A DNA stretch of 64,000 nucleotides from positions 123,931 through 187,930 of IMG/VR virus record IMGVR_UViG_3300032770_000001; one strand, written 5' to 3'. The translations under genes and the position numbers were made by a program. Below are positions 2,293 to 22,416 of this stretch, in pieces. The DNA comes from a virus. The notes below the pieces were generated by a model that saw nothing but the letters and a program-made list of their open reading frames with translations, searched no databases and was not told where the DNA came from. The stretch's first letter is position 1. Each line of letters opens with the position of its first letter.

Positions 2293-3350
2293 AAATCTAT
2301 CAGCGAGTTGCGGAACTCTACGTCAAGCGGATCAATGAGGTCTTCACGTCCGAAGACACCATGAAGGCTGAATTCTACAAGATGTTCCCCTTCCAGCCGG
2401 ACAAGAATGGCAAAATGGTGGAGTCCATTGAGTTCAGCCGCACCGACCACTGGAATGCTATTCTCTGGAAGATGTTCGAAGATGCGTGGCTTGAGGCCGG
2501 GCCGGAAGTGAAGTCTAAGCCGACCGGATATGACAAGCTCACCATCATGAAGTTGATTCATCCGCTTCTCGACTACAACCTGTTCACGCAGGTCTGCCTG
2601 AATCTTCAGGGTTATACTGGCATGGCGTACCGCCTCGGTGATGCGCAGGCTGTACTCAACAAGATCAAAGGTAGCTGGAAGCACCCGAAGCTCAACCCAT
2701 TCGCTCCCAAGGTGAAGCGGATCAAGGACGCCAAGGACAAGGATGAGGTCAAGTTCAACAGCATCATCGGTCGTGTCCGGTCGGTCAACTTGATTGCACA
2801 GTTCGACGGACAGTCCAGTTTTCGCGTGACCCCAAAGGGCTCTACTCCGGCGTTTGCTGATAGCCGCAATTTATCTATGATCGGCGTCGAGGGCGACCGC
2901 TATCTGAAAACTTTGCCGAACCTCAAGCCGTTCTACATCTCATGGCTGCCGGGTACGACGCCACAGTTTTACACGTCCAAGGAACAGAACTTTCAAACCT
3001 GCGGCAACAAGCCGGGAACAAACCCAATGGTACTGCATTTTCCCGGCATCGAATATCCGATCCTGTCGAGTTCTGGTGGTGACATCACCAATGAAGTCAT
3101 GTTCTCCCGGTTCGTCATGTACGAAGTTTTTCATGATTTCGACATCCTCAACGAGACATGTATCATGATCCCCCGGATGAACTCCGTGCTGGTGGTTACG
3201 CAGGTGGACGGTAAGCACATTAAGCAAACATTTGAGCGGTTGAAGGCTCAGTACCCTGTACTAGAATTCAACGAAGGTGTACGCTACAAAGAAGAGGAGG
3301 CAGTCGATGAAGTGGAAAGTGTTCCGCAATCTCCGTTCGGGGGAGCGTGA
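2286..3350 (+). CDS. hypothetical protein
   Basis: 354 aa from ATG 2286 (TTG 2277 and GTG 2280 are alternatives; no strong SD is visible). A soluble protein with alternating helical and strand-like segments, no membrane segment and no motif I recognise. A conserved-looking region around residues 150-260 contains many aromatic residues and a KxGxxP turn. It is one of the larger unknowns of this block and overlaps the 3' end of the zinc-ribbon gene. Confidence 0.7.
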   Translation: MLEIYQRVAELYVKRINEVFTSEDTMKAEFYKMFPFQPDKNGKMVESIEFSRTDHWNAILWKMFEDAWLEAGPEVKSKPTGYDKLTIMKLIHPLLDYNLFTQVCLNLQGYTGMAYRLGDAQAVLNKIKGSWKHPKLNPFAPKVKRIKDAKDKDEVKFNSIIGRVRSVNLIAQFDGQSSFRVTPKGSTPAFADSRNLSMIGVEGDRYLKTLPNLKPFYISWLPGTTPQFYTSKEQNFQTCGNKPGTNPMVLHFPGIEYPILSSSGGDITNEVMFSRFVMYEVFHDFDILNETCIMIPRMNSVLVVTQVDGKHIKQTFERLKAQYPVLEFNEGVRYKEEEAVDEVESVPQSPFGGA

Positions 3351-3471
3351 TGCAGTCAAACATACGAAAGATGGCGAGTCGCATACTTTCTGCCATGATC
3401 CACGCAATTGTGAGTGCGTTTGCACTCTCTGTAAACATGCGGCACGTCGCGTGAGAAAACTCCATGCCTAG
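3307..3471 (+). CDS. small Cys-rich protein
   Basis: 54 aa. The start at ATG 3307 is set by GAGGAGG seven bases upstream, inside the end of the preceding gene. The middle carries C-x-C-x2-C (CECVCTLC) and nearby His residues, suggesting one small zinc site. The N-terminal and C-terminal parts are basic. Function unknown. Confidence 0.6.
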   Translation: MKWKVFRNLRSGERDAVKHTKDGESHTFCHDPRNCECVCTLCKHAARRVRKLHA

Positions 3472-7581: not shown

Positions 7582-7863
7582 GTGGATGACCGCGACACGT
7601 TCGACCGCAAGTGCGTAGAGTTGCACATGGCGGTCTATTTTCACATGCAGGCGATTCAGTTCGCCGACGAGCGCAACGCCGAGCCGGGGGAGATGCGTGA
7701 ACTCCTGAAACGGCGAACCGATCTGGTTCAGGAAGCGTTGGATTACGTCTACGAGCATTGGGAGTATCTGGACGAGCCGACCAAGAAAGATTGGGAAGCT
7801 GCGGCTGCGGAGTTCCCACTAGCGAGAGAGAATGAAAACAGCGAAGCTACCGACGAAGATTGA
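7582..7863 (+). CDS. hypothetical helical protein
   Basis: 93 aa, GTG start. No SD; the start lies just after GGTATTAT, suggesting a leaderless message. Mostly amphipathic helix, very acidic C terminus (ENENSEATDED). Overlaps the NADAR gene by 32 bases. Confidence 0.55.
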   Translation: MDDRDTFDRKCVELHMAVYFHMQAIQFADERNAEPGEMRELLKRRTDLVQEALDYVYEHWEYLDEPTKKDWEAAAAEFPLARENENSEATDED

Positions 7864-8479
7864 CAGTTTCCGGGGCGTATACCGCTTCCTGTCGAACTTC
7901 TACGAGAACTGCCCGGTGAAGCTGTGGGTGAGCACCAAGGGCAAGGTCTTTGCGAATTACGATGGGCTCTACGGAATTGTCGAGCACATCAACTCGTTCA
8001 ATCATCTGCCGGACGATCATCCGGATCGCGATTTTCTGTACTGGATTGAGACTTACGACAACGTCGAGAATGCGTATCAGGCGGCGAAGTCCCTCGACAT
8101 AAACGTTCGTGAGAAGTTCCGTGTTCGCGGCCTGCGTCCGTGGGATGCGAAGAAGCTTGGCGGCACAGTGAAACTACGTCCTGATTGGGATACAGGCACC
8201 GGGACTATGCCGCCGTTTAAGATTGTGGTCATGCTCGGTTTGCTGATGCAGAAATTTGAGCCGACCATGCTACGGCGTCGTCTGCTTTCAACGATGACGG
8301 CTGAATTGATTGAGGGCAACAACTGGCACGACACGTATTGGGGCGTCTGCGACGGGAATTGCAACGAAGGTCCGCATGAACCGTTCGGCACCAACCATCT
8401 CGGCAGGCTGCTGATGATCGTGCGAGGGTATCACGGAGGTTTGTACGATGGCACGAGTATTCTTACAGCGCGTCAGTGA
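7832..8479 (+). CDS. NADAR (YbiA-like) family protein
   Basis: 215 aa. Family landmarks occur in order: FRGVYRFLSNFYENC near residue 13, ENAYQAAKSLD near 80, RPWDAKKLGG near 105, MLGLLMQKF near 133, then LIEGNNWHDTYWGVC (about 155-170) and GTNHLGRLLM (about 187). NADAR proteins act on N-glycosidic bonds of NAD- or ADP-ribose-linked compounds; some reverse ADP-ribosylation of guanine in DNA placed by DarT-type toxins, others (RibX/YbiA) act on riboflavin intermediates. In a phage, protection against host ADP-ribosylation or handling of NAD breakdown products is a reasonable inference. The start has GAGAGAG upstream and lies inside the preceding gene. Confidence 0.85.
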   Translation: MKTAKLPTKIDSFRGVYRFLSNFYENCPVKLWVSTKGKVFANYDGLYGIVEHINSFNHLPDDHPDRDFLYWIETYDNVENAYQAAKSLDINVREKFRVRGLRPWDAKKLGGTVKLRPDWDTGTGTMPPFKIVVMLGLLMQKFEPTMLRRRLLSTMTAELIEGNNWHDTYWGVCDGNCNEGPHEPFGTNHLGRLLMIVRGYHGGLYDGTSILTARQ

Positions 8480-8665: not shown

Positions 8666-8928
8666 GTAGTCGGCCATGCGACAAGCTTCCTTCTAAACTT
8701 GCTCATTGGCGAACAAAAACAGCTTTCGCGATATCCGACTCATATATTAGGAGCTAGTCTTCAAATGACATTGATGCGACCAACGCCGACGTTTCGACCG
8801 TGCACACCTACCGTGCGCGGGGGAATCGGACACACCCTTTAGGGTTCCGGTCGCACCCCGCGCTGCTAGGCGACGGGGCTCTGGCAAGTTGTGAATTTCC
8901 CAACATTACTGCCATTTTTACCCCGTCC
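8666..8928 (+). ncRNA. structured leader or ncRNA before tRNA-Pro array
   Basis: No convincing gene lies here. Perfect helices are GCGCGGGG (8815-8822) with CCCCGCGC (8856-8863), enclosing ACCC-TTTA-GGGT, and GACGGGG (8871-8877) with CCCCGTC, enclosing GGCA/TGCC and GTTG/CAAC. A 25-codon frame (8765-8842) runs through the first helix and is probably chance. The RNA may be a leader removed during tRNA processing. Confidence 0.45.
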
Positions 8929-9497: not shown

Positions 9498-9529
9498 AAA
9501 ATTTGAGAAGTAACAAGACCGAGGAAGGT

Positions 9530-9586
9530 ACATGGATGCTGGGGCGGTGTGCGCACACGTGAGTTCAATGCTCACTCCATGTACCA
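9530..9586 (+). other. tRNA-like element lacking D and anticodon arms
   Basis: A perfect seven-base-pair acceptor ACATGGA/TCCATGT (extendable to ten pairs, 9527-9536 with 9576-9585), a perfect T arm GTGAG-TTCAATG-CTCAC and an encoded ACCA. Only about 22 bases lie between acceptor and T arm, enough for a single hairpin (GTGT-GCGC-ACAC). It has the top half of a tRNA without a decoding half. Confidence 0.55.
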
Positions 9587-9656
9587 TCGGATATTCCGAC
9601 ACGCTAAGATTGTACGGTGCGTGACATCGAGTGGAAGTCTCGAAACAGGTTTTTGA

Positions 9657-9728
9657 TGCGGGGTAGTGTAGTAGCGCACGGAAGTCTCATAAACTTCCAG
9701 ACCAGTGCGACTCTGGCGACCGCAACCA
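9657..9728 (+). tRNA. degenerate tRNA, anticodon CAT
   Basis: The anticodon arm GGAAGT-CTCATAA-ACTTCC (CAT) is sound and ACCA is encoded. The acceptor pairs only at TGCGG/CCGCA, and the T arm CCAG-TGCGACT-CTGG has a non-canonical loop. Could be a weak tRNA-Met or tRNA-Ile2, or a decaying gene. Confidence 0.6.
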
Positions 9729-9731
9729 TTT

Positions 9732-9822: not shown

Positions 9823-10483
9823 ATGATTGTTGAAATTCGAGCAGCGGAAGGTGGAGATGACGCAAAGCTTCTCGTGTCCGACCAACTCACGATCTATGCG
9901 AGATTGGCGGCTCGGAGGGGTCTTTGAGTTTGAGATAACCGAAGAACGTCCCGGCATAGCGGTGTTTCAGGTGACGGGACAGGGAGCCCCGGCGTTGTTT
10001 GCAAATGAGAGCGGGGGGCACCGTTGGCAGCGAGTTCCGCCGACCGAACGATACGGACGACGGCAGACATCGACAATCACTGTCGCAGTTTTCGAGGAGC
10101 CGAAGGTCGAAGAGATCAACATTCGTGCTCAGGATTTAGAGTGGGATACGTTCCGGAGCCGTGGTAAGGGCGGACAGAACGTTAACAAGGTCGAGACGGC
10201 TGTTCGCGTGACGCACAAGCCGAGTGGCTTGGTCGTGCGTTGTGAGAATGGCCGTAGTCAGTGGCATAATAAGCGAACCGCTTTGCAGATTCTTGCGGCA
10301 CGGTTGGAAGCGCGAGATCGAGAGCAGAGACAAAGCGTAGTGGTTGCAGATCGTCGGTCGCAGATCGGCACAGGGCAGCGAGGCGACAAACGTCGTACAG
10401 CAAACGAGCGACAGGATCAAGTCACGGATCATGTCACCGGGCAGAAATGGCGCTATACTGATTACGTGAAGGGGAACTGGTAA
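9823..10483 (+). CDS. peptide chain release factor, +1 frameshifted
   Basis: Two frames join. ATG 9823 (GGAG upstream) codes 34 residues beginning MIVEIRAAEGGDDAKLL, matching the EIRA-x-GGDEA start of the class I release factor core, and meets TGA 9925-9927. After a +1 slip on CTT-T the second frame continues EFEITEERP to TAA 10481-10483, giving about 219 aa. It holds ESGGHRWQRVPPTE (stop-codon-reading loop, PxT type at about residues 72-74, as in RF1) and RGKGGQNVNKVET with the catalytic GGQ at about 116-118. The N-terminal domain 1 of full RF1/RF2 is missing, as in PrfH. The stop overlaps the start of an RNA ligase gene. It likely hydrolyses peptidyl-tRNA at UAA/UAG or on damaged ribosomes. 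Confidence 0.88.
9914..9928 (+). promoter_or_regulatory. programmed +1 frameshift site
   Basis: GGAGG-GGT-CTT-TGA: an SD-like GGAGG (9914-9918), three bases, then CTT (9922-9924) and in-frame TGA (9925-9927). This mirrors the bacterial prfB signal (AGGGGG, three bases, CTT TGA), where slow UGA termination promotes a +1 slip. Confidence 0.88.
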
Positions 10484-11094
10484 TGGAACAGTATCCGAGT
10501 ATCGACGGTAGCAGCAAAGCACCCATAGGGGTTCCGTGCATCGCTTTTTATAAGTACGACGGCTCTAACCTTCGATGGGAGTGGAACCCCAAGAAGGGCT
10601 GGTTCAAGTTCGGTACGCGGACGCAGTTGTTCGGTAAGGATGATCCGTTGTGGGGCAAGGCGGTGCCGATTTTCATGAACCAACTGGCGGATGAGATCGT
10701 GTACCGGGTCAAGCACGTGGAGCGGGGCTGTCAGCGGATCACGGCGTTCACGGAGTTTTTCGGATCGGGGACATTCGCCGGACAGCACCCGGAGATGACT
10801 GGCGGCAGCGAGGAGAAGGAATTGAGGCTCTTCGATGTCTACCTGTTCAAGCGGGGCTTGATGAAACCTCGGCAGTTCGTGAAGAGTTTTGGCGATCTAC
10901 CGCAGGCGGCTCAGGTGATCTATGATGGAAACCTGAACCGACAGTTCATCGAAGACGTTCGGATGGGGCTGTACCCAGTGAATGAGGGGGTGGTTGCGAA
11001 GGGTGACGATTTCATGGTGAAGATCAAGACCTACGCATACCTGAAGCGGCTGAACGAAGTTTACGGAACTGCATATCGGAACTATTGGGAGTAA
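10483..11094 (+). CDS. RNA ligase (Rnl2-like nucleotidyltransferase)
   Basis: 203 aa. Ligase motifs in order: I at K24 (FYKYDGSNLRW; Lys forms the AMP adduct), III (AFTEFFGSG, about 88-96), IIIa (LRLFDVYLF, about 110-118), IV (NEGVVAKG, about 167-174) and V (MVKIKTYAY, about 178-186). It is close to a minimal catalytic core, with little room for an accessory domain. It joins 5'-phosphate and 3'-OH RNA ends using ATP. The start overlaps the release factor stop (TAATG), so both are made together; repair of cleaved tRNA or rRNA is the natural inference. Confidence 0.85.
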   Translation: MEQYPSIDGSSKAPIGVPCIAFYKYDGSNLRWEWNPKKGWFKFGTRTQLFGKDDPLWGKAVPIFMNQLADEIVYRVKHVERGCQRITAFTEFFGSGTFAGQHPEMTGGSEEKELRLFDVYLFKRGLMKPRQFVKSFGDLPQAAQVIYDGNLNRQFIEDVRMGLYPVNEGVVAKGDDFMVKIKTYAYLKRLNEVYGTAYRNYWE

Positions 11095-11286: not shown

Positions 11287-11712
11287 TTGGCAAACGACGA
11301 TAGTTTTTTTGAAGGTGGAGAGCGGCAGGAGAACCTGAACCGCCATAACGCCCGGAAGGGTGGGTATGACCCGTTTAGGGTCACCGCAGGTCAAGAAAGA
11401 CGCGGTGAGCGTATTACGTGGGTCGATGTCTGGCTGGCTAATCCAGACGGAGCCGCCAATCACGATGAGGCTGAGGCACTCTCGGTAGGCGACGTAATGA
11501 AACACGTAGCGTCAGAGAACGATTTGTATGTAGGTTTTGAGAAAGAACTGGCTGAGGTTCAGCGAGAGTCTTTCGATGAGTCAGGTGTCAAGCTGGCGAA
11601 CATGGGGTCGAGAGAGTTCTTCAAAGACTCCCCACCCCCGGCACCAGTACCCGCCCCACGTGTGGCGGCACCAGTGAAGAAGTCGGATGACGATTTCTTC
11701 CCAAAATTTTAA
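11287..11712 (+). CDS. hypothetical protein
   Basis: 141 aa from TTG 11287 (TTGGAG upstream); a longer frame starts inside the tRNA and is not used. A globular centre (ERITWVDVWLANPDG) is followed by an acidic helix, a proline-alanine linker and a short tail DDDFFPKF that resembles an acidic C-terminal peptide such as those bound by SSB-type partners, though this is weak. It ends one base before the next tRNA. Confidence 0.55.
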   Translation: MANDDSFFEGGERQENLNRHNARKGGYDPFRVTAGQERRGERITWVDVWLANPDGAANHDEAEALSVGDVMKHVASENDLYVGFEKELAEVQRESFDESGVKLANMGSREFFKDSPPPAPVPAPRVAAPVKKSDDDFFPKF

Positions 11713-11713
11713 C

Positions 11714-11791
11714 GCCTGTGTAGCTCAGACTGGCTAGAGCGCCCGTCTCATAAGCGGGAGGTCGGGGGTTCGATGCCCTCCACAGGCACCA
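11714..11791 (+). tRNA. tRNA-Met or tRNA-Ile2 (CAT)
   Basis: Acceptor GCCTGTG/CACAGGC with CCA, anticodon arm CCCGT-CTCATAA-GCGGG (CAT) and a complete D arm. The fold is canonical. Elongator Met and lysidine-modified Ile2 cannot be separated from sequence by eye. Confidence 0.9.
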
Positions 11792-11914
11792 GTTTTAGGG
11801 AGACCGGGAACCTGCGGGCCCTTCCGAGGCTATAGCACCAGCGGCAACGGTGATTAACTGCCCAAACACAGTATCGGATACCCGGCAATTCTATTCAACA
11901 GGAGGATGAAGCAG

Positions 11915-11950
11915 ATGGCTAACCCTAGCATCACCGTACATACCGTGTAA
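11915..11950 (+). CDS. possible leader peptide
   Basis: An 11-codon frame (MANPSITVHTV) preceded by AGGAGG at a good distance (11900-11905). It ends 29 bases before the next gene. A leader or mini-cistron is possible. The rest of 11792-11979 holds no gene I can support. Confidence 0.3.
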   Translation: MANPSITVHTV

Positions 11951-11979
11951 GGTGTGGACGGTGGGAGGTAAAAAGCCAA

Positions 11980-12297
11980 ATGCGTCACCCTCGCACCCGC
12001 GACGAACGTCGCGCTGTACGCGAGCAGATCATTGCTCGTCGCAAATTTATCGCAACCCAGATTTGGGACATTCCGTCCTACGTCCGCCCTCCGCATGAAG
12101 GCGAATGGAACCGTTGGTCGAAGCCAGAGGAATGGGAGCCATTTCAGTGGGGTCGCTACCACAAGTGGAACATGAACTGTGGCGATACCATGTGTCATGG
12201 TGCGAAGTATTTCAAATGCGCTTCCAAGCGTCGTAAAGCACGCAAGGAAGCCGAGTCAACCGCCGAGTTTCGTCGTCGAAATAAGGCCATCGATTGA
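11980..12297 (+). CDS. basic hypothetical protein
   Basis: 105 aa; GGGAGG precedes ATG 11980. Arg/Lys-rich at both ends, with a Trp-rich centre (WNRWSKPEEWEPFQWGRYHKW) and a CGDTMCHG pair that could bind metal. Probably nucleic-acid binding. Function unknown. Confidence 0.6.
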   Translation: MRHPRTRDERRAVREQIIARRKFIATQIWDIPSYVRPPHEGEWNRWSKPEEWEPFQWGRYHKWNMNCGDTMCHGAKYFKCASKRRKARKEAESTAEFRRRNKAID

Positions 12298-12327
12298 CAA
12301 TGAAAAGACTTTGGACTAGCGTATTAT
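12294..12327 (+). promoter_or_regulatory. candidate promoter for structured RNA
   Basis: TTGACA at 12294-12299 and TATTAT at 12322-12327. The 22-base spacing is too long for a textbook sigma70 site, yet the same TTGACA-before-RNA arrangement occurs at 4517 and 8631. Confidence 0.4.
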
Positions 12328-12336
12328 TTATTGCGG

Positions 12337-12832
12337 GGTCTGGTTAAACCCTAGTGGCGATGACCACTCCCCGGTTTTACCCCGGCACCCGATACGCAAC
12401 GGGGCGCTAGTGATTAGGAAGGGTCGAGGCGAACTGCGTGCCCCCAAGGTGGGGCTAGCCGAAAGCCCGGATAACGTCCGACGTGGTGCCCGGTTCTAGT
12501 CAACCGTCGTGCGTCTACCTTTCGGGGAATTACAAGTACCCGAAAGGACGTGATGATGCAGTGCACTTGCCGGGGTTCTTTGATCTTTGATAGTTTTAGA
12601 GTCGAGTGGCCCGTGATTCAACTGGTTCAGTGGTTTCAGTAAGAGGGTCGAATGGCCTGTCAGGGACAAATAGATACTCCCTGAGCGATGTTAGACCGCT
12701 ATCCCCAGTATAAAAAACGCAGCAGCGGGGGCAGTATCCGTAAGGACTGCGGGAGGCTCCACGAAAAGGTGCTAGACAACCTGTGGGAGGCCGTATCGGG
12801 GTTCTAGCTAAACCGACCTGTGCTCGACTCTA
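12337..12832 (+). ncRNA. large structured noncoding RNA, part A
   Basis: About 500 bases without a supportable gene. Strong helices: AGTGG/CCACT, GCCCC/GGGGC, CGACG/CGTCG, CCTTTCGGG (12518-12526) with CCCGAAAGG (12539-12547), TCAGGGA/TCCCTGA, and a ten-pair closing helix TAGAGTCGAG (12597-12606) with CTCGACTCTA (12823-12832). A GTAA tetraloop caps GCAGT..CC/GG..ACTGC. The density of perfect helices points to a folded RNA, not a message. Confidence 0.6.
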
Positions 12833-12839
12833 ATTTTTA

Positions 12840-12932
12840 TGGCGGATGCCCGGATAGCGTAAGCAGTCACGTGAAAGTCGTGTTAACAGCCGGGGCGGGG
12901 ATGTTGGCGTAAGCCAAGCGAACCATCCGCCA
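12840..12932 (+). ncRNA. structured RNA module with GTAA loops
   Basis: Closed by a perfect nine-pair helix TGGCGGATG (12840-12848) / CATCCGCCA (12924-12932). Inside are CACG/CGTG, GCCCGG/CCGGGGC and TTGGC-GTAA-GCCAA. The outline recalls a tRNA-sized three-way junction but it lacks a T arm, so it is not called a tRNA. Confidence 0.55.
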
Positions 12933-12937
12933 AGGTT

Positions 12938-13016
12938 TTGCCGCTGTGGTATGAAACGCTACCAAATGGGCACGGTTCCGAAAGGACGCAATGGCCCTGC
13001 CAGCGGCAACGTTTTT
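12938..13016 (+). ncRNA. structured RNA module ending in T run
   Basis: Perfect nine-pair helix TTGCCGCTG (12938-12946) / CAGCGGCAA (13001-13009) followed by CGTTTTT. Inside are TGGTA/TACCA, GGGC/GCCC and a TCC-GAAA-GGA hairpin. It may act partly as a terminator; it ends three bases before the initiator tRNA. Confidence 0.55.
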
Positions 13017-13018
13017 GA

Positions 13019-13095
13019 TGCGGGGTGGAGCAGTCAGGTAGCTTGTCGGGCTCATAACCCGAAGGTCGGCGGTTCAAATCCGTCCCCCGCTTCCA
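13019..13095 (+). tRNA. initiator tRNA-fMet(CAT)
   Basis: Bacterial initiator marks are present: no pair at 1-72 (T-T), acceptor GCGGGG/CCCCGC from position 2, and three G-C pairs in the anticodon stem (TCGGG-CTCATAA-CCCGA). The D arm and T arm closely follow the bacterial fMet pattern. CCA is encoded and the discriminator is T instead of A. Confidence 0.92.
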
Positions 13096-13106
13096 AGTGT
13101 TCGCCG

Positions 13107-14104
13107 CCGTGGGTTGTTAGTTGTACTCAGAGTGCCGTCAGGAACAGCAAGATCGTACTAGTACCTGAGAGCGCAACCCACGGTTTAGAGGCGATTGCCG
13201 TCACCTGCGGATGTAGTACGGTCTGGGCGTCAGGTGCGCCGGGTCGGTGACCCAGACCGGAGCGACATCGTTGACCGGACATTCCGGTTTCGTTAGCAGG
13301 TCCTCATGGGACATCAGCATGGTGCCTGAGTAGTGCTGAAGTTCGAGGAACCGCGAAAGCGTGAAACCTGTGAAGCGATCCTCAGGCCGATCTTTGAAAA
13401 GTTTGCGGCGGCGTTCCCGGTGTCCCGTCAATAGACTGGTTCCTGACCGGATACGTGAGTAATCGTTCTTCAAGGGGTGAAATAAAAGAACGGCGCAGAA
13501 CAGGTTCCTGCGCGTGGGGCTGTGATTTTCCAGCTACTACCTCTCGCCGCAATATAACAAATCTGCAAGTTGCATTCCGATGCCCGAAGCGCCCGATGAG
13601 GGTTTGCGGACGGTAGCGTGACTTGCGGAGGGTAGGTGAACGGCTTCACAGCCGCCGTCGAAAGACGGGCAAGTCCGCCGTAAATTCGGGACGACGTTCA
13701 CCCGGTCAGGCACTACTAAAACAGAACCGTGGGGTGCCGTCAGTCGAGAGACTGGATGTTTCTGATTGCGCATGGCATGGCGAGGTCTCCCTATGTTTGG
13801 ACGGAGGCAGGCCCTTTTCGACAAGGGACATACGTCAGAGCGGAATCACGGTGGGTATGTGGTTGGAACCATCCATGTAGTGGCCTGACGCCTAATTTCA
13901 GTTTCCGGTCGTGGCGGAAAAGAGACGATAAACAAATAGAGACGCTAAAACTCGCTGAGAGGATGTACCCTGATTTCGACAGGGATTCTCAGCCTGTGAG
14001 ACTCTGTAGGTAGCACCCACGTCTGACAGATGTTAGTGGCTCGAAAGAGCAGCAGAGTCATGCACCGTGGAGAATCGGGAATCGGTGCCGACTGGAAGAT
14101 TTTT
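13107..14104 (+). ncRNA. large structured noncoding RNA, part B
   Basis: About 1 kb with little coding potential on the + strand. Helices include CCGTGGGTTG (13107-13116)/CAACCCACGG (13174-13183), CGGTCTGGG/CCCAGACCG, ACCGGA/TCCGGT, CGTTCTT/AAGAACG, GCGCAG/CTGCGC, CCGTC-GAAA-GACGG, CAGTC-GAGA-GACTG, CCCTT/AAGGG, CGTCAG/CTGACG, TTTCCG/CGGAAA, GCTGAGA/TCTCAGC, GACTCTG (14000-14006)/CAGAGTC (14053-14059) and GCTC-GAAA-GAGC. ACTTGC (13621)/GCAAGT (13669) interlocks with GGTGAACG (13635)/CGTTCACC (13695), a pseudoknot. It ends in TTTTT. Size, GNRA loops and place beside tRNAs recall the phage RNAs GOLLD and ROOL; membership is not shown. Confidence 0.65.
13201..13473 (-). CDS. uncertain leftward ORF inside structured region
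   Basis: 90 aa on the minus strand from a TTG, without a visible SD. The second half (MLMSHEDLLTKPECPVND) reads like protein, but the DNA is also part of a hairpin-rich region. It could be a small antisense gene or chance. Confidence 0.25.
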   Translation of the reverse strand: MKNDYSRIRSGTSLLTGHRERRRKLFKDRPEDRFTGFTLSRFLELQHYSGTMLMSHEDLLTKPECPVNDVAPVWVTDPAHLTPRPYYIRR

Positions 14105-14173
14105 GGAGACAACATGAATAGCACTCACACCCCGACCGGATGACCCTTGCTCATCCTTCGGAGGTAAGGTAAT

Positions 14174-14431
14174 ATGGCATGTGACACCTGTATCTTTCTG
14201 AACAACGTTCGGACCCGCCCGGTAGGGAAGGGAAAGGACGAGCAGAAAGGCGAGAAGCTGGAGCCCTGCTCCATGAAATATGCCTGCAATCCGTTTTGGG
14301 ACGGAGCGCAGGGAGTGGGCAAGGTCGTGACTGAGTCGTACTGTGCGACCTGCTCGGAAGTAGCTGACAAATGTGGATGCACGCAAGGATTGCGTGTGAT
14401 CCGGCAGCGCAAGCTGCATTATGCTCGGTAA
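14174..14431 (+). CDS. Cys-rich hypothetical protein
   Basis: 85 aa; GGAGGT lies 12 bases upstream of ATG 14174. Eight Cys (CDTC, PCSMKYAC, YCATC, CGC) suggest two zinc or iron-sulfur sites. The middle is basic (RPVGKGKDEQKGEK). Unknown role. First protein gene after the long RNA region. Confidence 0.6.
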   Translation: MACDTCIFLNNVRTRPVGKGKDEQKGEKLEPCSMKYACNPFWDGAQGVGKVVTESYCATCSEVADKCGCTQGLRVIRQRKLHYAR

Positions 14432-15385: not shown

Positions 15386-15449
15386 GTTTTCGAACTATTA
15401 GGATCATTACTGAATGAAGCTCTACGACTACACTCTCGACTTGTTTACC

Positions 15450-15467
15450 AGCCCCTTCCGGGGCTTG
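15450..15467 (+). terminator. weak hairpin terminator
   Basis: AGCCCC-TTCC-GGGGCT followed by TGT, just before tRNA-Phe. An 18-codon frame (15414-15470) covers it and is probably chance. Confidence 0.35.
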
Positions 15468-15481
15468 TAATACGTGTGTCT

Positions 15482-17272: not shown

Positions 17273-17977
17273 ATGTCCGATCAGTACCAGCAGGCACCGG
17301 AAGTAGTCGATCTCGAATTTCACCGCAGCGCAGCCGACACGTTCTATCGCATGGGCAGCATCGCCCGTGGAATCAATCCAGCCCGAATCGAACGTATTCA
17401 AACTGAAATCGACTTTACCGATCTGGTGGATGACCTAACGGGTAGACGTGGCGAGAAAATCTCTTGCCCATTCCACGGCAGGGACAGCACGCCGTCGTTC
17501 TTCACTCGTGGTGGTTTCGGTTTCTGCTTCGGCTGTCCACCGGGGCAGCAATATTACGATCAGATTCGTTTCGTCCAAAAGTTCAACGATATCTCGTGGT
17601 TCCAAGCTCTTCGTTGGATCGAGAAGGAATACGAACTTCCTCCGCTGCCGGAATACGCAAGCGAAGAAGAGATCGAGGACGAGATCACGACGGAAGTTTT
17701 CTTGGTCGATCTGGAAGAAGAGTATTTTCGCAAGGCAGCTAAGGATTCACTGCAACATCTTGATCCGGGGCTTGCCGAAGAGTACGCCCTGATCTATTTC
17801 AACGCCCGTGAACAAGACGAAGGGGCCAATGAAGCACGCAAAGCCGGGGAGCACGAAGAAGCGTCCCGCATGAAAAACAAAGCGACAACTATGTTGGCGA
17901 GAGTATTAGGTCAACAGGTGGTCAATCAGATTCTTGACGATAAAGAAGCGCGGAACGAGAAGTTGTGGCGAGTGTAA
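17273..17977 (+). CDS. primase zinc-finger (CHC2) protein
   Basis: 234 aa. Residues about 62-90 form the DnaG-type zinc-binding domain: ISCPFH, then DSTPSFF, then FGFCFGC (CHC2 ligands C-H-C-C), followed by the typical helix (DQIRFVQKFNDISWFQALRW). The C-terminal 130 residues are an acidic helical region. It lacks a TOPRIM domain; one occurs in a separate protein at 34482-35228, so the primase seems split. The stop overlaps the polymerase start (TAATG). The message is predicted leaderless. Confidence 0.8.
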   Translation: MSDQYQQAPEVVDLEFHRSAADTFYRMGSIARGINPARIERIQTEIDFTDLVDDLTGRRGEKISCPFHGRDSTPSFFTRGGFGFCFGCPPGQQYYDQIRFVQKFNDISWFQALRWIEKEYELPPLPEYASEEEIEDEITTEVFLVDLEEEYFRKAAKDSLQHLDPGLAEEYALIYFNAREQDEGANEARKAGEHEEASRMKNKATTMLARVLGQQVVNQILDDKEARNEKLWRV

Positions 17978-20900
17978 TGGACTTTGAAATCGACAACATC
18001 GACGACGAACCAATAGAGGAAATTGCCGAGGAAGAAGTTGCGGACGAGCAGGTAATCTCCGAAACTATCGCCTCCCTCCCTATTGCGGAACCGGAACAGC
18101 AATCATTGCTCAATGACATCGTTGTGCCGAAGAAGACCCGCAAGCGCAAGCCGAAGACCGAGACTGCGGACGGTGAGGTCGTCGTTACCAAGCGCACCAA
18201 GAAAACCAAGAAGGTCAAAGAACCGTCCGACCTGCGCTACATCTTCCGTAAGGCAATGAAAGCTCTCGACATCGAGAAGCTCAAAAAGCCGTGGATGGCT
18301 GAGAAAGCTTTCCGCCTGCTCGACACGGAAGAAGCTCTGGAACGTTGGGTGGACGGCATCCTGTCCGACACATCCCGACACTACACTTACGGCAATGAAA
18401 CCTGCCCCGTCATCGCAGTTGACACCGAGACGATGGGTCTGGATACGCGCATTCTCGTGGACATCCAGCAGCGTCCGGATGGTGGTTACGATCTCATTTA
18501 CGAAGTCAAGATCGAGATTGCAGGCATCTGTCTTTCCCCGGATGGGGTTGAAGGCATTTACATTCCGATCAATCACGAGAAAGGTAATAACGTTTCTCGC
18601 GAGGCTGTTCGTCGCATTCTGCAAAAGCTGTTTGACCGCAGCCATCTGGTATTCTACAACGCCAAGTTCGACCGCGAAGTTCTACGCCTGTGCTGCGGCA
18701 TCAATCTGCGTGGCTACCCGCACTTCGAAGATGTGCAATCCCTTGCTTTCATCAATGACCCGAAAGCGGACCTCGGCGATAAGAAGCAGAAATACACTGG
18801 ATCGAGCGGCGGCTTGAAAGCCCTCTCGAAGAACGTTCTGCGCGATTCTAATGGCAATCCGATTGAGCAGATCGAACTGGAAGAGATCGGTCGTTTCAAA
18901 GCATCATGGTGCCCAATAACGCAACAATCTTTCTGCACCTGTACGCCTGAAGAAAGAAAAGCGGCTTCCGATCAGGGCAAGAAGCACTCTCACGTCAATC
19001 AGTACGTTCCGTTTGTATGGGTTCCGACTAATGTGGCGTTATGGTACGCCGCTGGTGACGCTATCTGCACGTGGCTGCTCTGGGATAAGATGAAAGACCT
19101 CGCCCGGAGCCGCCGTCTACCGCACCGCATTGACCACGAACTGGTGGACTCGTTGGTATTCGTCGAGCGTCAACGTTTCCTGATCGATGTGGATCGCCAC
19201 ACCCGGACATCGAATTGGCATACTCGCCTGCTCGATGGGCTCAACGCCAAATTGCGTGAACTGGCTTTGGAAGCTGGTTACCCCGAAATTAAAACGGACG
19301 AGGGCGTCGTTCTCGACGATGACAAGTTCAATCCAGATAGTCCGCCTCAGGTCGGCAAACTTCTCTACACGATCAAGAAGTATGAAGCCACGCATTTCAG
19401 CAAGAAGACTGGCAACGCCTCTTGCGATGCGGATGCCATCGATGATTTGTTGAAGGAACATCCGGAGGATGAATTCCTCAAAACCTACGTCAAGTACAAA
19501 GGCTACTCGGCCCTGCACCCGTCAAATTTGCGCTATGATCCGAAGGACAACTCTGCTCGTATTCACCTGCGGCAGTCTACGGTCGCTGGCGGTCGTCTAT
19601 CGGCGTCAGGCGGCAAGTTCGAAGAGGATGGCGGATTCGGTCTCAACCCTCAGGGCGTCAAGAAGGTTGAGCCCGGTAAGATGTGGCGTGTCATGGGTCA
19701 GATTCTTAAACCGGATTCTATTCCGGTGGAAGAGATCGAAGCGCATGAAGAGAGCGAACTGCACCCATCATGCTTCTTTGAGGATAAAGAGCACAACAAG
19801 AAGAAAGCTCCCGGCATCATCAACAACCATATCGGGCTCTACACGGGCTACGCGATCTGTCTGGTGCCGACCTGCACCACCTGTAAGGAAAAGTTCGGCA
19901 TTCTCATCAAAGACGGGTTCATGGATGCCAACCAGACCGTCAATCTGCGCTGCCTGTTCATAGCGCCTCCGGGTTGGACATTCTTCTCGGTTGACTACTC
20001 CAACATCGAAATGCGTGCCGCCGCGAACTGCTCCGGTGAACCCGCATTCATCAAGGAATTCCTTGAGGGCGAGGGCGACTTCCACAGCTTAACCGCATCA
20101 AAGGTCTTCCCCGAATTTAACGATCCAAGCACGCCTCCGGGCAAGAAAAAAGCTCTCCGCGATCTGGCTAAGATCATCAACTTCGCCTTGCTGTACGGCG
20201 GCACATCGCACGCGATCTATCTGAACATGAAGGAAGTCGATCCCAACATCACCAAAGAAGATTGCGAGAAGATGGTGAACAAATATTGGGAAGGCGTGCC
20301 TAAGTTCGCTGAGTTCGTAAACGCGAAACAGTACAAAGCTCGCACCGAATTCATCTGCGAAACCAGCACGGGCCGCGTCATTAGCTTCCTGTCGGCTATG
20401 GAGGCTTTACGCATCCATGCTCCGACCGCCGAAGAAAAGCAAAACCTCTACAACTACTACGGCATACGTCGTGAGGCTGAGACCGCCAAAGCACGGCATG
20501 ACATGGAAGCTTACGATGAACTCCGTGGCAAGATGGACGCCTTGTGGAAGGATGCAGACTCAGGCGTGCGCAATGCCATGGAGTACAACAAGTTCGTCGG
20601 CAAGATTCAACGTGTCGCCGTCAATGCTCCGATTCAGGGTCTCTGCGGTGATTTCATGCGTATCGCCCTGAACCGCCTGCGCATGTGGGTGGAGAACGAT
20701 CCGGAAATCTCTTCGATCTTCCGCCTGCACACGTCGGTACACGATGAAGTTGACTTCTCAGTGAAGAACGAGTACATCCCGTTCATTCTGCCGCGTGTCA
20801 CCCGCCTCATGAAGCTGCGTAAGTACCACACGCAGATGAACTGGATGGTGCCGATTGAGTGCGATGCTGAGTACGGACGTTCGTGGGATGTTGACTGGAA

Positions 20901-22416
20901 CACAACTGACCCGAAGAAGCCAGCCGCATGGACGCACGTGGATGGCATGGAGAACTACATTCCGGATGAATTTGATCCGGCATCGGTCATGCGCCTCATC
21001 AAAGCGATCACGTCATTCGAACCCGCCCGTGTGGATAAGGTCAAGAACTGGCTTAAGGACAGCATCCACGCCCGTGCATACGAATGTGTCAAAGCTCTCG
21101 ATAAAGCCTTGGAGAAGAAGGACACCAAGGAAGTAACTCGCGTGCTCATTGCTATGCTCCAGTTGCATGAATACTGGACAATCGATCATACGCCGGATGG
21201 CAAGGAATTCGACGCTTCGCTGGAGAAGCTCGAAGCTTACGAGGCCCGTATGGGTCTGAGCAAAGCGGATCGTGGCATCAAGCCGGAGTTCGGCTATCTC
21301 GGTGCGATCCCATTAGAGTGCAATGTCATTCGCCCGAAGATCGAAATTCTTGGCGAAGAAGTAGTACCGGAGCAAGCGCAGATCGTTGTGTCGGAAACCG
21401 AGATCAACGCAACCAATCCAGAAACGCAGACACAGCAGACCATCACGCTCATGGTTGAAGATCAACAGCCTGAGGTCTTGGCTGAGAGCCCCGCAGATGT
21501 GGTGACCGTGGCCTACGATGCGGATTATGACGAGCCGAACGTGGTTTCACATGAAAAAGTTGTCGAACGCCCGTTGCGGGAAGTGCCTAAAGCGGGGATT
21601 CGATATCTGGCAAGTAAGCTTCCGGCATTTCCTGAAGCCCCGCACAAGGACGATAAACAAGCCTACGTCGATTGGGGCGTCGAAGTAGAACGGTTGTTTA
21701 AGAATGAGATCGCGCCACACATTGGGCTCACAGTCAAATTCAACGCGGAAAAGAAAACCAATGTCGGGGCAATCGATTTTGTTATCGACCATTCCTACCT
21801 CGCTGATTTGAAATATCAAGGCAAGCCGTTTTTCTCATGCTGCTTGAAGAACCCGAAACACGATTTGAACCCGCAAACCACGGTTAGCTACAACTATGAC
21901 GACACCAAATACGCCGATGACGTGTGGGTGATTTTCTTGGTCAATTGGGAGATTCTGAAGGGATCAGACGTTCCCGGTTATGATTACGCCGGAGCACCGT
22001 GGCAGCGAGTTTTCGTTAATCCAATGGGCGGTGTGTGGCGTATCAAAGTTTCTGACATTAAAAAGTTCATCGCCGAGGGCATGGCTCCGCTTCATGAGTA
22101 TGACCGCGAATTGGACGCCAACGGCATGATGAATGAGAGTCACAGCTATTTGCTCGATCTGTCATGGCCGGGATTCGAGCAAATTGCATGGTTCGATTAC
22201 GAATCTACGTCAGAACCTATCGAGCCGAAAATATACCCGATTCAGGACTCAATCATCGGCAATCAGGAGTTAAAAACCCGTCTTCAGACGGCATTAGGAA
22301 CCGGACCGCACACAGTTACAGTCAGCATCCTTGGAAAGCAGTATCAATTAACAGGGAAGGCTTTGGATTACGTGCCGGACGAGTTCTTGAAACATGAGGA
22401 GCTTGTCCATGCTTAA
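17977..22416 (+). CDS. DNA polymerase I family (A) with nuclease-like C-terminal domain
   Basis: 1479 aa from ATG 17977 (GTG 17965 is an in-frame alternative). After an acidic/basic N-terminal tail comes a 3'-5' exonuclease: D149-x-E151 (VDTETMG), N228/D232 (YNAKFD) and Y357/D361 (YAAGDA). Polymerase: GGRLSASGG, motif A with D673 (VDYSNIEMR), motif B R728/K732 (RDLAKIINFALLYGG) and motif C H922-D923-E924 (SVHDEVDF). An insert of roughly 90 residues before motif A carries CTTC. Beyond about residue 1020 lies a long extension; near its end D1267, D1277 and K1279 (AIDFVID and ADLKYQ) fit a PD-(D/E)xK nuclease core. Replicates phage DNA. Family members are usually 600-1000 aa. Confidence 0.92.
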   Translation: MDFEIDNIDDEPIEEIAEEEVADEQVISETIASLPIAEPEQQSLLNDIVVPKKTRKRKPKTETADGEVVVTKRTKKTKKVKEPSDLRYIFRKAMKALDIEKLKKPWMAEKAFRLLDTEEALERWVDGILSDTSRHYTYGNETCPVIAVDTETMGLDTRILVDIQQRPDGGYDLIYEVKIEIAGICLSPDGVEGIYIPINHEKGNNVSREAVRRILQKLFDRSHLVFYNAKFDREVLRLCCGINLRGYPHFEDVQSLAFINDPKADLGDKKQKYTGSSGGLKALSKNVLRDSNGNPIEQIELEEIGRFKASWCPITQQSFCTCTPEERKAASDQGKKHSHVNQYVPFVWVPTNVALWYAAGDAICTWLLWDKMKDLARSRRLPHRIDHELVDSLVFVERQRFLIDVDRHTRTSNWHTRLLDGLNAKLRELALEAGYPEIKTDEGVVLDDDKFNPDSPPQVGKLLYTIKKYEATHFSKKTGNASCDADAIDDLLKEHPEDEFLKTYVKYKGYSALHPSNLRYDPKDNSARIHLRQSTVAGGRLSASGGKFEEDGGFGLNPQGVKKVEPGKMWRVMGQILKPDSIPVEEIEAHEESELHPSCFFEDKEHNKKKAPGIINNHIGLYTGYAICLVPTCTTCKEKFGILIKDGFMDANQTVNLRCLFIAPPGWTFFSVDYSNIEMRAAANCSGEPAFIKEFLEGEGDFHSLTASKVFPEFNDPSTPPGKKKALRDLAKIINFALLYGGTSHAIYLNMKEVDPNITKEDCEKMVNKYWEGVPKFAEFVNAKQYKARTEFICETSTGRVISFLSAMEALRIHAPTAEEKQNLYNYYGIRREAETAKARHDMEAYDELRGKMDALWKDADSGVRNAMEYNKFVGKIQRVAVNAPIQGLCGDFMRIALNRLRMWVENDPEISSIFRLHTSVHDEVDFSVKNEYIPFILPRVTRLMKLRKYHTQMNWMVPIECDAEYGRSWDVDWNTTDPKKPAAWTHVDGMENYIPDEFDPASVMRLIKAITSFEPARVDKVKNWLKDSIHARAYECVKALDKALEKKDTKEVTRVLIAMLQLHEYWTIDHTPDGKEFDASLEKLEAYEARMGLSKADRGIKPEFGYLGAIPLECNVIRPKIEILGEEVVPEQAQIVVSETEINATNPETQTQQTITLMVEDQQPEVLAESPADVVTVAYDADYDEPNVVSHEKVVERPLREVPKAGIRYLASKLPAFPEAPHKDDKQAYVDWGVEVERLFKNEIAPHIGLTVKFNAEKKTNVGAIDFVIDHSYLADLKYQGKPFFSCCLKNPKHDLNPQTTVSYNYDDTKYADDVWVIFLVNWEILKGSDVPGYDYAGAPWQRVFVNPMGGVWRIKVSDIKKFIAEGMAPLHEYDRELDANGMMNESHSYLLDLSWPGFEQIAWFDYESTSEPIEPKIYPIQDSIIGNQELKTRLQTALGTGPHTVTVSILGKQYQLTGKALDYVPDEFLKHEELVHA

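Follow-up and report, generated by a model that had tools for sequence, protein, structure and literature searches.

A noncoding tract inside a tRNA cluster of a giant soil phage is best explained as a row of small noncoding RNA genes that are separate from one another (u0, u1, u2 and probably u3, then d2 and d4) and lie among tRNA genes of the same strand. We put at about 0.6 the probability that these RNAs are stable and act in trans by binding to the machinery of translation or of tRNA maturation, with an expression, processing and target that we infer. The explanation is supported by covariation in u0, u1 and d4, by the independence of the modules, by more closing helices than shuffled sequence contains, by the adjacency of d4 to tRNA genes, by an RNase P RNA elsewhere in the genome, and by a short release factor with a candidate RNA ligase in the island. 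Annotation of phage tRNA clusters commonly stops at the tRNAs; here, at least three more RNA genes with phylogenetically supported folds are present. The units u0–u3 are previously undescribed and the d4 family had not been recognised before; the unexpected part is the d4 family together with its co-occurrence with RNase P RNA.

A noncoding tract within a tRNA cluster

The window, by which we mean the whole stretch of 64,000 nucleotides analysed, corresponds to bases 123931–187930 of a 455,708-bp virus record (a jumbo-phage contig, G000). The noncoding tract occupies 12298–14173 inside a cluster of 16 tRNA genes. This cluster is adjoined by a DNA polymerase gene (17965–22413) whose nearest named relative is the polymerase of Tunturiibacter phage Tunturi_5, a 309-kb phage with a host among the Acidobacteriota (PMC11924767), and a clade of related phages was gathered by a DNA-polymerase search. 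An Rfam scan of the whole window returned tRNAs only. Within 11700–14200, a search at E values up to 10 gave two tRNAs, one spurious antisense match and nothing else, so that GOLLD, ROOL and OLE, for which the preliminary description had proposed a search, are matched neither at gathering nor at this relaxed cut-off. The features of the tract are the following.

12379–12576, plus strand: u0 RNA with a 9-bp closing helix; homologues in L002, L003, L007 and L010
12412–12417, plus strand: 5′ strand of the u0 pseudoknot (GATTAG), pairing with 12496–12501
12496–12501, plus strand: 3′ strand of the u0 pseudoknot (CTAGTC), pairing with 12412–12417
12596–12833, plus strand: u1 RNA with an 11-bp closing helix; homologues in L002, L005, L007 and L033/L019
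12771–12776, plus strand: u1 P4 loop (GCTAGA), loop-loop partner of 12803–12808
12803–12808, plus strand: u1 P5 loop (TCTAGC), loop-loop partner of 12771–12776
12840–12932, plus strand: u2 RNA with a 9-bp closing helix; one homologue, in L003/L004 at about 3242–3365
12938–13009, plus strand: u3, a probable RNA unit with a 9-bp closing helix, judged from structure only
13019–13095, plus strand: initiator tRNA-Met (ARAGORN; 59 bits with the Rfam tRNA model)
13107–13183, plus strand: d1, a long hairpin found in the window phage only (perfect 10-bp helix, z −4.2)
13291–13413, plus strand: d2, a conserved noncoding module also found in L002, L003, L005, L007 and L009
13902–14098, plus strand: d4 RNA, which belongs to a family of RNAs found across many phages (20 doubly changed pairs versus 9.3 shuffled)
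13925–13929, plus strand: d4 motif 1 (ACGAT core), conserved across the family
14067–14083, plus strand: d4 motif 2, invariant loop GTGGAGAATCGGGAATC, whose flanking stem covaries over 40 distinct hairpins

Closing helices bound four adjacent units

Between 12294 and 13016 we identified four closing helices that consist of nine or more Watson-Crick pairs without a mismatch, with lengths of 9, 11, 9 and 9 bp (12379–12387/12568–12576, 12596–12606/12823–12833, 12840–12848/12924–12932 and 12938–12946/13001–13009), which bound u0, u1, u2 and u3, respectively. The three such helices of the preliminary description are all present, and that of u0 is additional. Its suggestion that this order goes beyond chance is borne out as well: dinucleotide shuffles of the same interval contain a mean of 0.34 such helices, and one shuffle in 300 reaches four. 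Thermodynamic stability exceeds that of shuffles only weakly, with MFE z-scores of −1.21 for the whole tract and of −1.53, −1.53, −1.19 and −1.38 for u0, u1, u2 and u3 (those of u2 and u3 being computed on stretches with the complete closing helix), so that the proposed comparison of folding energies yields a marginal excess (z about −1.2 to −1.5). Since the folding energy is barely better than that of shuffles, energy alone is insufficient, and it is covariation among homologues that decides.

The GNRA loops reported earlier can be read directly as GUAA in u1 (CCGUAAGG), GUAA in u2 and GAAA in u3. The T-runs at 12834 and 13012, previously described as T-rich ends, are likewise real; their reading as terminators was rejected, since the runs are not conserved among the u1 homologues. 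These homologues carry different, mostly shorter T-runs 3′ of the helix, which makes A/U-rich spacers likelier than terminators, and a search for an excess of promoters or terminators found none. Every u1 copy has a stop in every frame, and the copies vary in length by 45 nt (203–248 nt), in agreement with the claimed absence of coding potential.

Covariation in u1, u0 and u2

In L002 and L007, the homologues of u1 share 82% identity with it over 233 nt, and u1 is also present in L005; an invariant 17-mer recovers it in L019 and L023, which are the same contigs as L033 and L042. Over 57 pairs and five distinct sequences, 95.5% of cells are paired, compared to 29–47% when slid, and there are 16 doubly changed pairs versus 5.3 in shuffles, a number reached by none of the 500 shuffles. 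The P4 and P5 loops are complementary in all homologues, with two of the five aligned pairs changed on both sides: GCTAGA faces TCTAGC in the window, CTCGA faces TCGAG in L002, TCTAGT faces ACTAGG in L033 with one G-U pair, and the loops of L005 pair with one bulge. The invariant unpaired loop block of u1 is AGTATAAAAAACGCAGCAGC. Other matches to the u1 pattern (L015, L018, L020–L022 and L024) lie in unrelated sequence, and the single match in cellular genomes, on a Legionella contig, has no u1 homology.

For u0, five sequences give 14 doubly changed pairs versus 7.6 in shuffles, again with 0/500 shuffles reaching the observed value. Its pseudoknot helix is paired in 100% of cases and covaries at five of seven pairs, the strands reading CTAGTC and GATTAG in the window, CTAACC and GGTTAG in L010, and CTGTTTG and CAAGCAG in L003. 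A DNA pattern search for u0 was too unspecific and gave chance matches only.

The single homologue of u2, in L003/L004, lies directly 3′ of a tRNA-Met. Comparison of the two sequences reveals compensatory changes in P1 (C-G/U-A) and in an inner helix (G-C/U-A), and a pattern search for u2 added no new phage. A homologue of u3 was sought in the related phages and none was found; d1, which lies directly 3′ of the initiator tRNA, has none in the relatives either.

The structures were drawn from the same sequences that were scored, and five related sequences per family are few; thus the counts of doubly changed pairs, such as the 16 of u1 and the 14 of u0, are not counts of independent events. The stronger argument lies in the slide control and in the joint replacement of several pairs within one helix. 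The covariation proposed as a check is strong in related phages for u0 and u1 and suggestive for u2, where two sequences only can be compared. Taken together, these results support a structured noncoding RNA upstream of the initiator tRNA, as the preliminary description had it; what it called one region consists of four adjacent units, in an array that runs past the tRNA to 14098.

d4 belongs to a widespread phage RNA family

In six relatives, d4 displays 20 doubly changed pairs, which none of the 500 shuffles reaches. Members of the family, as we define it, share a covarying stem that carries the invariant loop GUGGAGAAUCGGGAAUC and, 5′ of it, the motif ACGAU..AAA, and they usually also have a closing helix; the window d4 has all three. 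Used as a pattern, GTGGAGAATCGGGAATC matched 44 stretches of viral contigs. At 38 distinct sites, a stem of at least 3 bp flanks the loop in 37 and ACGAT lies no more than 162 nt upstream in all 38. In a set of 40 distinct hairpins, pairing within the stem amounts to 87.5% (44% when shuffled), with a covariation score of 1.08 versus 0.22. Of the 42 loci, 23 have a closing helix with eight or more Watson-Crick pairs, compared to 1.9% of combinations in which the two ends come from different phages. Motif 1 (AGANACGATCNANAAA) shows strong conservation, but a surrounding stem scores scarcely above shuffled flanks and is thus unsupported.

The covariance model R3 finds all 42 retrieved d4 loci with E values below 0.002. 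About five-sixths of its matches cover the greater part of the model, and the remainder comprise little beyond the terminal hairpin, so that the pattern, and not the model, defines the outer members of the family. R3 also matches 21 of 22 whole records, most of which were chosen for carrying the d4 pattern, including LR756501, a 735-kb uncultured phage genome. A blastn search for named phages with d4 returned only this uncultured 735-kb record (LR756501/LR756503). Rfam 15 contains no family that matches d4 members (16 loci, at gathering), and at E values up to 10 four d4 loci gave weak matches only, all below gathering.

In all, the family extends over about 40 phage contigs, whose base compositions differ widely. 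tRNA genes are present in 31 of the 42 loci, at a median distance of 155 nt and nearly always on the same strand (294/298), while 11 loci have no tRNA in the retrieved DNA; downstream and neighbouring genes vary across the family. That d4 is so strongly conserved beside the tRNA arrays of such diverse large phages suggests that translation takeover includes a step not known so far.

The modules occur separately in relatives

Gene order differs between the relatives. We found u0 without u1 in L229 and L010, u1 without u0 in L227 and L220, and d4 without u0 or u1 in L218 and L219; u1 is joined directly to d4 in L220, u2 follows tRNA-Met in L229, and L002 has two d4 copies, the second weaker. Since some loci are fragments (L010 starts just 5′ of u0), single absences there weigh less. 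In L002, L003 and L007, u0 lies 5′ of a small ORF, and in the window it lies 5′ of u1. Because the units are separate in relatives and have different neighbours, the modules behave as independently inherited RNA genes and not as one giant RNA or as mRNA leaders. As judged from the alignments, covariation shows u0, u1 and d4 to be conserved RNA structures, each with a terminal helix of its own that closes it.

Alternative explanations

A single, very large ornate RNA (about 1.8 kb), similar to GOLLD or ROOL, with the tRNA inside and with u0–u3, d2 and d4 as domains of an RNA-only particle, would account for several structured modules in a row and for the complementary loops of u1. Moreover, GOLLD and ROOL occur near phage tRNA islands, and the GOLLD linker can hold tRNAs (PMC12286853). 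However, there is no Rfam match, and the separate inheritance of modules that each have their own closing helix makes such a molecule quite improbable. The positions of u0 5′ of a small ORF in L002, L003 and L007, and of the window d4 5′ of a short ORF and of ORF 14174, could instead mean that the units are leaders, of a riboswitch, T-box or attenuator-like type, which act in cis on the small genes next to them. We consider this improbable, since the neighbours on the 3′ side are not constant (in the window u1 comes after u0, and u1 itself precedes u2, a tRNA or d4), the neighbours of d4 vary across its family, and Rfam finds no T-box or riboswitch family; a riboswitch or T-box has a conserved downstream gene, whereas here the neighbours differ between relatives.

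The location of the units between same-strand tRNA genes, with closing helices like those of excised stable RNAs, would also fit elements for tRNA-precursor processing, or spacers that are functionless once excised. This is unlikely, given that long invariant unpaired blocks (AGTATAAAAAACGCAGCAGC in u1 and the d4 loop) and conserved tertiary contacts exceed the needs of a spacer. Chance folding in GC-rich noncoding DNA is in keeping with MFE z-scores of only about −1.2 to −1.5 for u0–u3 and with the lack of homologues of u3 and d1; it is extremely improbable for the array as a whole, given the covariation of u0, u1 and d4 (0/500 shuffles for each), the invariant blocks and four helices where 0.34 are expected. 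For u0, u1 and d4 chance folding is refuted, and for u3 it is a possible explanation.

Comparison with known RNA systems

Testing of the units with ARAGORN, Rfam RF00005 and tmRNA models found the flanking tRNAs only, and the Rfam models of RNase P, which find a match elsewhere in the same genome, find none in the tract. Rfam thus rules out T-box, tmRNA, RNase P, GOLLD and ROOL for the tract, and the earlier remark that the units match neither tRNA, RNase P nor tmRNA is confirmed. The T4 RNAs rnaC and rnaD (species 1 and 2 stable RNAs) likewise have phage tRNA genes of the same strand as their neighbours. They are 119–139 nt long and share no homology with u0, u1 and d4, as the covariance models R1, R2 and R3, run with filters off, gave no meaningful score on either. 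By the same three models, u0, u1 and d4 are also absent from Tunturi_5.

YrlA (Y RNA-like) RNAs are structured and have paired ends; this candidate was dropped, as there is no Rfam YrlA match in the tract and no TROVE/Ro protein (PF05731) in G000. The packaging RNA of the phi29 type is small, with a closing helix and complementary loops. This is a resemblance only: there is no Rfam match, u1 lies in a tRNA array, and its loop-loop contact may be intramolecular. We also dropped the VIPR vrRNAs (PMC13142463), since visual inspection of the units revealed no tracts of YNNGG repeats.

ROOL and GOLLD are elaborate phage RNAs of unknown function that occur near tRNA islands and contain pseudoknots (PMC12286853). 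They are single molecules of about 660 nt (ROOL) and over 800 nt (GOLLD), whereas the RNAs described here are separate units of 70–240 nt without an Rfam match; in place of the one long contiguous molecule of GOLLD, ROOL or OLE, the relatives have separate modules. Given this and the lack of homology to rnaC and rnaD, u0, u1 and d4 would represent new RNA families, in kind like rnaC/rnaD and ROOL/GOLLD.

RNase P RNA in the same phage

This phage also has a gene for a class A RNase P RNA (G000:92128–92502, contig C1; L276:1457–1831), which scores 167.1 bits against a gathering threshold of 100. It sits outside the window, between tRNA genes of another tRNA cluster, and its conserved core (GAGGAAAGUC ... 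ACAGAACCC.GCUUA) is intact. Ten related phage records likewise have a class A RNase P RNA above the cut-off. Outside the clade, two d4 phages have short RNase P-like RNAs that score below gathering with the archaeal model: L269:851–1045 on the minus strand (25 bits), which abuts d4, and L275:1501–1675 on the minus strand (44 bits). Both adjoin tRNA genes. In the searchable literature, to which subscription journals do not belong, we found no report of a phage-encoded RNase P RNA, and the main texts of a jumbo-phage review and of the huge-phage survey are silent on it. From its presence in this phage and its relatives it would seem that some jumbo phages themselves carry out the processing of their RNA arrays.

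Proposed maturation and function

If the units are separate RNA genes, the array would be transcribed as a long precursor together with the tRNAs. Cleavage by RNase P, either the host's or the phage's own, and by an endonuclease in the A/U-rich spacers may then release each RNA, with the closing helix protecting its ends. The mature RNAs would act in trans, their invariant loops serving as putative sites for protein, the ribosome or tRNA-processing factors, possibly in the setting of translation takeover or RNA repair. In the window, 9827–11091 encodes a short release factor (prfA/prfH-like, 218 aa) without the N-terminal domain and, directly after it, a candidate RNA ligase (phrog_548, E 2e-6); these genes fit such a setting and prove nothing about the RNAs.

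A wider reading, which we offer tentatively and regard as doubtful, is that large phages carry a self-contained kit for the maturation and deployment of tRNA arrays, comprising the RNase P ribozyme of this clade, the widespread d4 as a general accessory RNA and the lineage-specific u0–u2. Within such a kit d4 might, for instance, act as the scaffold or guide with which arrays are processed, tRNAs repaired or ribosomes captured.

Other features of the tRNA clusters

The whole G000 record has 64 tRNA matches in several clusters, which look sorted by codon box: Tyr, Leu, Pro, Met and Phe in the window, and Ala/Val/Gly/Asp/Cys/Glu and Gln/His/Arg/Asn/Lys elsewhere. Two of the tRNAs read as having a CTA anticodon; despite these, TAG is the stop of nine of the 56 window ORFs. 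A probable divergent tRNA at 9647–9731 was missed by ARAGORN, and its homologue in L012 is called as tRNA-Met. At 7832–8476, a gene for a NADAR-domain protein adjoins the tRNA cluster. A conserved leader at 11793–11985, 5′ of ORF 11980, has about 80% identity in three relatives and contains a short ORF that has a ribosome-binding site to itself (MANPSITVHTV* in the window, MATNPSKTAHTA* in relatives); relatives of the ORF 11980 protein were sought and none was found. Just 5′ of the tRNA-Phe pair, a second conserved leader of about 50 nt (15431–15481) shows 83–87% identity in relatives, and further conserved noncoding modules of the cluster lie at 8748–8905 and 9511–9599.
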